Positions 6,299 through 59,996 of a DNA stretch of 64,000 nucleotides are shown piece after piece (the stretch's first letter is position 1; each line of letters starts with the position of its first letter). Source of the stretch: Brevibacillus composti (GTDB lineage Bacteria > Bacillota > Bacilli > Brevibacillales > Brevibacillaceae). The stretch is from the NCBI RefSeq assembly GCF_016406105.1, contig NZ_CP066308.1, positions 2,639,501 through 2,703,500 of the forward strand, in the 5' to 3' direction. Under the pieces are notes generated by a model. The model saw only the letters and a list, made by a program, of their open reading frames with translations. It made no database searches and was not told the origin of the DNA. The position numbers and the translations under genes are program-made.

Positions 6299-6439
6299 TT
6301 ACGCGCTGACCACTTGCGCGAGTCTGATGTTTCTTCTTTCTATCTCTGTGTTGAGCAATTCAATAAAATCCGGATCCAGTTGAAGGTCGACTGCACGATG
6401 ATATACTTCGATCAACAGTTGGTCAGTTAAGTATTTCAC
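6299..6439 (-). CDS. sda: Sda, checkpoint inhibitor of sporulation kinases
   Basis: The 46-residue product (KYLTDQLLIEVYHRAVDLQL..., DFIELLNTEIERR) matches B. subtilis Sda in length and pattern (SDELLIESYFKA..., DFIELIENEIKRR). Sda folds as a helical hairpin and blocks autophosphorylation of KinA/KinB, delaying sporulation during replication initiation or damage. The start is GTG at 6439: GGAGGTGA lies 8 nt upstream, and this start gives exactly the family length. A sigma-A promoter and a cluster of DnaA-box-like 9-mers lie upstream, consistent with DnaA control as known in B. subtilis. Confidence 0.92.
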   Translation of the reverse strand: MKYLTDQLLIEVYHRAVDLQLDPDFIELLNTEIERRNIRLAQVVSA

Positions 6440-6473
6440 GCTGTGTGTCACCTCCATCCCTTTACCTGAACCC

Positions 6474-6502
6474 ATTGTAGCAGAAGAAACGGCCCCGAAC
6501 AA
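6474..6502 (-). promoter_or_regulatory. Sigma-A promoter of sda
   Basis: On the minus strand TTGTTC (6502-6497), 17-bp spacer, TACAAT (6479-6474). The predicted start is about 30 nt before the GTG codon. Confidence 0.7.
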
Positions 6503-6510
6503 CCGTTCTG

Positions 6511-6619
6511 ATATCCACAGGCAATGGGGATATCATGTGGGTAAGTTGTGGGCAAGCTGTGGGCAACTGACAAAAAGACAGGTTTGTCCATGTGGATTCT
6601 CCTTCCTGAATTATCCACA
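6511..6619. promoter_or_regulatory. Cluster of DnaA-box-like 9-mers upstream of sda
   Basis: A perfect box TTATCCACA lies at 6611-6619 and ATATCCACA (one mismatch) at 6511-6519. Three reverse-orientation 9-mers are spaced exactly 11 bp apart: TGTGGGTAA at 6536, TGTGGGCAA at 6547 and TGTGGGCAA at 6558. A weaker TGTGGATTC is at 6591. The cluster lies between the sda promoter and the rocD terminator. DnaA regulation of sda is established in B. subtilis; occupancy here is inferred. Confidence 0.7.
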
Positions 6620-6658
6620 TGATGTCGTAATTTGTCGAACGATTGTATGTCTATAACG

Positions 6659-6697
6659 AAAAAAAGCGGTCCCTCACTCGTGGCGGGACCGCTTTTC
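6659..6697. terminator. Bidirectional terminator of rocD
   Basis: Perfect 9-bp stem AGCGGTCCC / GGGACCGCT with T-rich flanks on both strands. Confidence 0.85.
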
Positions 6698-6730: not shown

Positions 6731-7942
6731 TTACGCGTTTGCTGTCTCTTTTACTTCCAGGACCTGCTTGATCCGCTCGATCGCCCAATCCAGATCCTCT
6801 TTGCTGATCACCAGCGGAGGGGCGAAGCGAATGGTCGTCTCATGCGTTTCTTTGCAGAGAAGTCCCAGCTCTTTCAGTTTTTCGCAGTAAGGACGCGCCG
6901 CGCCATGCAGCTCCAGCCCGATAAAGAGCCCGCGTCCGCGCACTTCTTTGATCAGCGGGTTTTGAATCTCCCGCAGCTTGCCGATAAAGTACTCGCCCAG
7001 CTCGCTGGACCGCTCTACCAGCTTTTCATCCGTGAGAACGTCCATCGCCGCAATGGCTACGGCGCAACCGAGCGGATTGCCGCCAAAGGTGGAACCGTGG
7101 GAGCCTGGCTCGAACACGCCGAGCACTTCGCGGTTGGCTGCGACAGCCGAGATCGGGAATACCCCGCCGCCCAGCGCTTTCCCCATGATGTACATGTCCG
7201 GCTTTACGTCTTCCCAATCGGCGGCAAACATTTTGCCCGTGCGGCCAAAACCCGTCTGGATCTCATCGCATACGAGCAGAACGTTGTTTTCTTTGCACAG
7301 CTCCGCAGCCTGTTTCAAGAAGCCTGCAGGCGGGATGATGATGCCCGCTTCGCCCTGGATCGGCTCCAGCATAAAGGCAGCCGTGTTAGGCGTGATCGCC
7401 TGTTTCAATGCCTCGATGTCGCCGTAGGGAATCAGCTTGAAGCCCGGGGTGAACGGACCGAAGCCCCGCTTGTAGCCAGGATCGGACGAGAACGAGGTGA
7501 TCGTTACCGTGCGCCCGTGGAAATTGCCGGTACAGACGATAATTTCCGCCTGATCCTCCGGCACTTTTTTCACGTCATACGCCCAGCGGCGAACGGCCTT
7601 CAGCGCGGTTTCCACTGCTTCTGCTCCCGTATTCATCGGAAGGATCATATCTTTGCCGGTTAGTGCGGCCAGTTTTTCATAAAATTCGCCCAGGCGGTCA
7701 TTGTAGAAAGCGCGAGAGGTCAGCGTGACTTTATCCGCCTGATCTTTCAGCGCCTGGATGATCCGCGGGTGACGATGGCCCTGGTTCAATGCGGAATAGG
7801 CGCTCAGCATATCGAGATATTTGTTTCCTTCCGGATCCTCTACCCATACCCCCTCTGCTTTCGCGATGACGATCGGAAGCGGATGGTAGTTATGGGCACC
7901 GAATTTTTCCGTCTGGTCAATTACCTGTTTGGTTTTGTTCAT
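6731..7942 (-). CDS. rocD: Ornithine aminotransferase
   Basis: A 403-residue class III PLP-dependent aminotransferase converting ornithine and 2-oxoglutarate to glutamate semialdehyde and glutamate in arginine catabolism. Visible features are [12 protein letters not shown] (cofactor phosphate region), [19 protein letters not shown] (Asp that binds the pyridine N) and MGKALGGG with the Schiff-base lysine. Length and motifs match Bacillus RocD rather than acetylornithine aminotransferase. The ATG follows TAGGAGG. A -24/-12-type promoter and RocR-like sites lie upstream, and the divergent neighbour is rocR. Confidence 0.95.
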
Positions 7943-59303: not shown

Positions 59304-59996
59304 TCAGTTGTTTCGAACGAGTCCGATCAGCTCTTCAAAGAAGGGGGCGATGTCGCCCTGCAAGACGGGACCGTGACCCGTAGCCAGATATTCAATCGGC
59401 CACCTCAAGAGGATCTCCAGGCCTTCAGCTAACCCTTCGGCCTTTTGCGGGTCCTCCTCCTTGCATTTCTGAAGAAAGTGGCGATAAGCATCCCGCTGGA
59501 GCCCGCCATATTCGACCAAGCGCTCAAACGGCGCCTGGCCAAAATGGATGTGGTCCCCGACAAAGCACACTTTGGTATCGGGATCGTAAAAGGCAACAGA
59601 GCCCTCGGTGTGGTAAGGCAGCTGGCGAAACTGAAGCAGCGGCAGGTCACCCCCGATGCCCGTGAAGGTGTGCCCGAAAAAGGTTTGTGAAAAATCATCC
59701 AATTCATAGTAATCTTCGAGATGAATCCAGTTATGCCGGGAGGAAAACAGGTCGGCATTGCCAATATGGTCAGCATGACGATGCGTATAGTATACGTAAG
59801 CAATCTGCTCCGTCTTGACTCCAATCTCCACAAGCGCCTGTTGGAAGTAGGGGCGGTGCTTGCGAAGATGGGAGTCAATCAGCACATAGGCATCGTTCTT
59901 TGCGATTACATAGCTGTTGATGTAGCTTTGCCACGCTTCTTCATAGGTGAGGATTGCCCAAGTGGAATCGGCTATGAGTTCGGTTACGTTTGTCAA
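59304..59996 (-). CDS. MBL-fold metallohydrolase
   Basis: A 230-residue metallo-beta-lactamase-fold protein with Zn motif THRHADH (HxHxDH). HTEGSVAFYDPDTKVCFVGDH supplies the later His/Asp ligands, and a final ATGHGPV gives another His. It belongs to the glyoxalase II-like hydrolase group; the substrate is unknown. The start is TTG at 59996 (MTNVTELIADSTW); AGGAGAGGAGAG lies roughly 10-20 nt upstream. The open frame continues further left, but that portion is promoter sequence. Confidence 0.82.
   Translation of the reverse strand: MTNVTELIADSTWAILTYEEAWQSYINSYVIAKNDAYVLIDSHLRKHRPYFQQALVEIGVKTEQIAYVYYTHRHADHIGNADLFSSRHNWIHLEDYYELDDFSQTFFGHTFTGIGGDLPLLQFRQLPYHTEGSVAFYDPDTKVCFVGDHIHFGQAPFERLVEYGGLQRDAYRHFLQKCKEEDPQKAEGLAEGLEILLRWPIEYLATGHGPVLQGDIAPFFEELIGLVRNN

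Follow-up and report, generated by a model that had tools for sequence, protein, structure and literature searches.

The region upstream of sda in the window (i.e., the whole 64-kb stretch of DNA that was analysed) is very probably the control region of an sda promoter that DnaA would activate and LexA would repress, and alignments support a conserved DnaA-box array belonging to sda. DnaA activation and LexA repression are already established for sda of B. subtilis, and the region is a largely understood checkpoint switch. Judged from the loci compared, nearly the same sda layout is kept across sporulating Bacilli, the sequence layout of the DnaA/LexA control known from B. subtilis being conserved with it. 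What is new, at the level of sequence, is the rigid class-wide architecture together with a conserved Spo0A-type (0A) site. No description of a rigid class-wide layout was found in the literature searched.

The sda gene encodes 46 amino acids from a GTG start at 6439, with the last sense codon ending at 6302 and the stop codon just beyond. Its promoter, TTGTTC-17-TACAAT, occupies 6502-6474 of the minus strand, and the boxes noted upstream of it in a scan for 9-mers with at least six of eight matches to TTATNCACA are included in Table 1. The 9-mers of the original prediction were all present where they had been placed (TGTGGGTAA at 6536-6544, TGTGGGCAA at 6547-6555 and 6558-6566, and TTATCCACA at 6611-6619). 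The claimed pitch of exactly 11 bp between three of these boxes proved real but understated, as four boxes on the same strand (6525-6566, the first of them degenerate) share this pitch. Thus, the DnaA boxes of the original prediction were borne out, whereas the fourth array box at 6525, the LexA-type operator over the -35 element and the tandem Spo0A-type box had been missed. Individually, the array boxes are weak, three matching at 6/8 (one of these with a degenerate CACA end) and one reaching 7/8; together they form a run of four weak boxes of the same orientation with 2-bp spacing. Two further box-like 9-mers were set aside, one at 6648 as unconserved and one at 6442 as overlapping the ribosome-binding region.

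Table 1. Features of the sda control region and its surroundings (window coordinates).
Feature	Position	Strand	Basis
sda, sporulation checkpoint inhibitor of phosphorelay kinases	6302..6439	-	Pfam PF08970, E 1.7e-19; translation
sda ribosome-binding site GGAGGTGA	6449..6456	-	sequence; kept in 26 genomes
-10 element TACAAT, sda promoter	6474..6479	-	17 bp from -35; best -10 at spacer 17 in 56/58 loci with a LexA-type site
-35 element TTGTTC, sda promoter, within LexA-type operator	6497..6502	-	invariant in 26 genus members
LexA-type operator GAAC-AACC-GTTC over -35	6497..6508		motif conservation; same motif at SOS genes
Inverted promoter-proximal DnaA box ATATCCACA (7/8)	6511..6519	+	directly upstream of -35; TGTGG start 11-12 bp before LexA-type site in 58/58 loci
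Array box 4, degenerate, ATATCCCCA (6/8)	6525..6533	-	scan; genus alignment
Array box 3, TTACCCACA (7/8)	6536..6544	-	sequence; scan; genus alignment
Array box 2, TTGCCCACA (6/8)	6547..6555	-	sequence; scan; genus alignment
Array box 1, TTGCCCACA (6/8)	6558..6566	-	sequence; scan; genus alignment
Distal DnaA-like box GAATCCACA (6/8)	6591..6599	-	ATCCACA part conserved
Distal perfect DnaA box TTATCCACA (8/8)	6611..6619	+	TGTGGATA invariant in 26/26 genus members
Tandem Spo0A-type box, TGTCGTA 6623-6629 and TGTCGAA 6633-6639, 10-bp pitch	6623..6639	+	consensus match; conservation
Intrinsic terminator between rocD and sda control region	6661..6697 (ends approximate)	-	fold -25.5 kcal/mol, z -4.5, then U run
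Class-III aminotransferase, upstream neighbour (rocD of the original prediction)	6731..7942	-	Pfam PF00202, E 3.7e-137

The rarity of this arrangement was evident from pattern searches of the window and of the genome. Thus, the array is the sole 11-bp run of at least three boxes in the window, where one other 11-bp pair was noted (at 59468), and the strict pattern TGTGGNNAANNTGTGGNNAA gave two overlapping matches in the 4.47-Mb genome, both upstream of sda. Single boxes with one mismatch were not enriched in the window (31 versus 24.7 +/- 5.8). Since lone weak boxes are common, the finding is the arrangement and not the boxes.

Alignment of the sda upstream region across relatives, which had been proposed as a check of the array, indicated that the boxes are conserved both within the genus and, in their pitch, throughout the class. 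Each of 26 genus genomes carries one copy of sda, and the four-box array is free of gaps in all 26, with several indels in the flanking sequence; those relatives that bore names in a profile search of genome contigs were Brevibacillus species. The CACA ends of the boxes are largely kept while the two spacer bases vary, and box 4 is better in most relatives (ATGTCCACA or similar) than it is here. On the strand of sda, the box at 6511 reads TGTGGAT, which is invariant in the 26 genomes, as is TGTGGATA at 6611. A Brevibacillus-type sda module was also noted in NZ_CP064048.1 (L097); this record groups with Brevibacillus, and its title, Anoxybacillus sediminis PCH 117, looks like a misnomer.

In a family search, Sda was found in 163 of 399 sampled Bacilli genomes, from which 80 upstream regions that diverge from one another (8-mer Jaccard below 0.15) were compared. 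Pairs of boxes on the same strand at a pitch of 11 bp occurred in 73 of these 80 loci, which share ancestry and are not independent events, against approximately 3 expected from dinucleotide shuffles. Pitches of 22 and 33 bp occurred in 68 and 43 loci, respectively (approximately 3 expected), and pitches of 10 and 12 bp in 8 loci each. Runs of at least three boxes at 11 bp were present in 53 of the 80 loci (shuffle mean 0.03, maximum 1 of 80). The conservation of the array in 26 of 26 genus genomes and in 53 Bacilli loci versus 0.03 excludes chance. The sequence between the boxes has diverged across the class with the pitch kept; the conserved feature is the helical spacing of weak DnaA boxes, even where box sequences drift.

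The gene upstream of sda differs between groups, being rocD here, a divergent yqeG-like gene in Bacillus-type loci and others elsewhere. Since this neighbour varies while the module is kept, the module travels with sda and not with the neighbour. Action of the array on read-through from rocD, also raised in the original prediction, is unlikely because a strong terminator hairpin separates rocD from the array. A small open reading frame with a plausible to good ribosome-binding site (approximately 6448-6594, minus strand) overlaps with the array, its end falling in the Shine-Dalgarno region of sda; it was rejected as unconserved, as indels between the boxes in relatives leave no conserved reading frame.

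Just beyond the outermost DnaA box, TTTGTCGAA (6631-6639) contains an exact match to the 0A consensus TGTCGAA (PMC10134886), and a copy with one mismatch lies at 6623-6629, 10 bp from it. The genome encodes Spo0A (Spo0A_C, E 3e-45). An octamer resembling the 0A box was present in 53 of the 80 Bacilli loci (shuffle mean 1.6, maximum 5) and in 19 of 22 Brevibacillaceae representatives, mostly at 126-132 bp from the LexA-type palindrome, and both this box and the LexA-type operator hold near-fixed distances to the DnaA array. The octamer was missing in several family groups among the 80 loci, and loci such as L150, L153 and L174 carry the DnaA array and the LexA-type site without it. A yardstick scan for 0A boxes, itself weakly informative, gave three one-mismatch sites upstream of SpoIIE and none upstream of SpoIIGA.

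A different identity for this element is a real possibility, although one that we consider doubtful, namely that TTCGACAAAnnnCGAC is another site related to DnaA or else serves as the -35 element of a second, distal promoter (TCGACA-17-GATAAT). The 0A and DnaA boxes resemble each other in consensus (PMC5295017), and a promoter scan did return the distal promoter, with 10 of 12 matches, at 6638-6610. However, its proposed -10 end varies among relatives (GATAAT, GATAAA or GATATC), for which reason this promoter was discarded, whereas TCGACA is conserved, as is the second CGAC in most of them; moreover, the core matches the 0A consensus exactly and recurs at 10 bp. With the element read as a Spo0A-type site, the sda region would combine three inputs, namely DnaA-ATP, read by the 11-bp-phased array, DNA damage, read by way of LexA, and Spo0A~P, read at the 0A box approximately 130 bp upstream of the -35 element. 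We advance this composite reading tentatively, as somewhat short of an even chance; action of Spo0A~P at the distal box, which may occur, is the least certain part of the scheme. If true, the region would be an ancient, rigidly spaced composite element through which Spo0A directly regulates its own checkpoint inhibitor, and the conserved 0A box makes direct Spo0A-to-sda feedback testable. No report of regulation of sda by Spo0A~P, of a 0A box at this position or of direct feedback from Spo0A to sda was found in the literature searched, which did not include the main Spo0A-regulon study.

The exact palindrome GAAC-N4-GTTC was found in 58 of the 80 divergent loci versus 0.38 in shuffles. The distance from palindrome to gene ranged from about 56 to 164 bp, and the nearest DnaA box began 11-12 bp before the palindrome in every one of the 58. 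The middle of the site here, AACC, departs from the B. subtilis LexA consensus. This genome contains lexA, and CGAAC-N4-GTTC also occurs in it before a Y-family polymerase gene and in the interval that separates lexA from a yneA-like gene; genome-wide, this longer motif was not enriched (15 versus 35 for the reversed control). It is unlikely that GAAC-N4-GTTC is conserved merely as part of the -35 element and not as a LexA operator. Conservation of TTGTTC would by itself preserve half of the palindrome, and the exact palindrome is absent in 22 of the 80 loci. However, GAAC is not part of the -35 hexamer and the other 58 loci nonetheless have the complete palindrome without a mismatch, the motif recurs at the lexA/yneA and polymerase genes mentioned above, and the two halves are separable. 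Thus, GAAC is missing at L067 and L074 where the TTGTTC half persists, and its loss in some genera while TTGTTC stays marks it as a separable element.

LexA control of sda need not be universal, since 6 of the 22 Brevibacillaceae representatives have no exact palindrome; the TTGTTC half that remains at L067 and L074 at least suggests that such control has been lost there. Upstream regions without an exact GAAC-N4-GTTC were noted at L067, L068, L069, L071, L074 and L085, from several Brevibacillaceae genera. Elsewhere, a LexA-type site (CGAACATACGTTC) was noted near 1501-1513 of L049, ahead of a metalloprotease-like gene that has an XRE-type regulator as its neighbour, and possibly belongs to a mobile element under SOS control.

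Arrangements of boxes at 11 bp were also noted at other places in the genome. Thus, 11-bp pairs numbered 35 versus 9 in the reversed control, and further clusters had pairs as well as three-box runs, among them those at the ends of the contig, the apparent site of oriC. Given these arrangements, DnaA clusters of this organism probably share the 11-bp pitch as a general trait. Three-box runs near 627.3 kb (L194) and 668.5 kb (L195) may match the DnaA-box clusters that B. subtilis carries outside oriC.

The array upstream of sda might likewise serve mainly in DnaA titration or replication control, as do such B. subtilis clusters, with its proximity to sda incidental. The other 11-bp runs, including those near 627 and 668 kb, and the excess of 11-bp pairs over the reversed control agree with a titration role, which we nevertheless regard as improbable, as throughout Bacilli the cluster accompanies sda and holds a fixed position relative to the -35 and -10 elements despite the changing neighbour, and DnaA directly activates sda of B. 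subtilis (PMC4447404). Titration and sda-control roles could also coexist. Very improbable is an arrangement in which DnaA near the -35 element blocks sda, since, although several B. subtilis genes are DnaA-repressed (PMC4447404) and the inverted box is close to the -35 element, this box lies just upstream of and not over the latter, TTGTTC, the best -35, is as poor as would be expected of an activated promoter, and sda of B. subtilis, which shares this layout, is activated.

With DnaA as an activator of sda, the layout would operate as follows. DnaA-ATP would anchor at the good boxes at 6511 and 6611 and spread cooperatively along the four weak boxes between them, which face the same way and follow one another at 11-bp intervals (9-mer plus 2 bp). 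The inverted box at 6511 would set DnaA directly upstream of the poor -35 element, in contact with RNA polymerase, and replication-active DnaA would in this way raise sda transcription. LexA over the -35 element would compete and hold the promoter down until removed by DNA damage. Sda would in turn block the kinases that feed Spo0A, so that cells would not sporulate while replicating or damaged. The cooperative face-of-helix array of the original prediction is sound as to its pitch, which is the spacing of cooperative arrays in E. coli oriC (PMC6727663); cooperativity here, like contact between DnaA and the promoter, is what we infer. The counting of initiation events, which the original prediction also considered for the array, is hypothetical. 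As a small promoter open to experiment, the region lends itself to the question of how spacing renders DnaA binding dependent on ATP.

The premise that DnaA control of sda is established in B. subtilis agrees with published results, both as to direct activation and as to ATP preference. Thus, the activation of sda by DnaA is direct, and the sda region counts among eight with high affinity for DnaA, listed as DnaA-binding region 7 of an in vitro genome-wide study, in which its recovery with ATP-DnaA was approximately 50-fold that with ADP-DnaA at 55 nM (PMC4447404). Repression of sda by LexA is stated in PMC4689574, and deletion epistasis places sda downstream of lexA (PMC5445613). The Sda of L127 is identical to that of B. 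subtilis (PDB 1pv0), and the layout of this locus is as found here, with TGTGGATAA, AGAACGATTGTTCT and three array boxes at the 11-bp pitch. Compared through L127, the B. subtilis promoter and the present one are alike in the gene itself, the DnaA-box cluster, the inverted box before a TTGTTC -35 element, the LexA-type palindrome and the distal 0A-like octamer. The present array has weaker boxes of higher GC content (TTGCCCACA), and four are on pitch as opposed to three. The spacing within the distal inverted pair is approximately 20 bp in Brevibacillus versus 11 bp in Bacillus-type loci (L127), a difference close to one helical turn, and the upstream neighbour is an aminotransferase gene (rocD) of the same direction here as opposed to a divergent yqeG in B. 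subtilis.

Likenesses extend to two origins of replication. Weak DnaA sites 2 bp apart support cooperative binding of DnaA-ATP at E. coli oriC, where low-affinity arrays likewise consist of weak 9-mers that face the same way, 2 bp apart and near stronger anchors (PMC6727663). The present array differs in that it belongs to a promoter region as opposed to an origin, and its likeness to oriC would be one of box layout. At B. subtilis oriC, as at sda here, 0A boxes are found close to DnaA boxes (PMC5295017); the two kinds of box partly overlap at the origin, whereas the 0A box upstream of sda lies just outside the outermost DnaA box.
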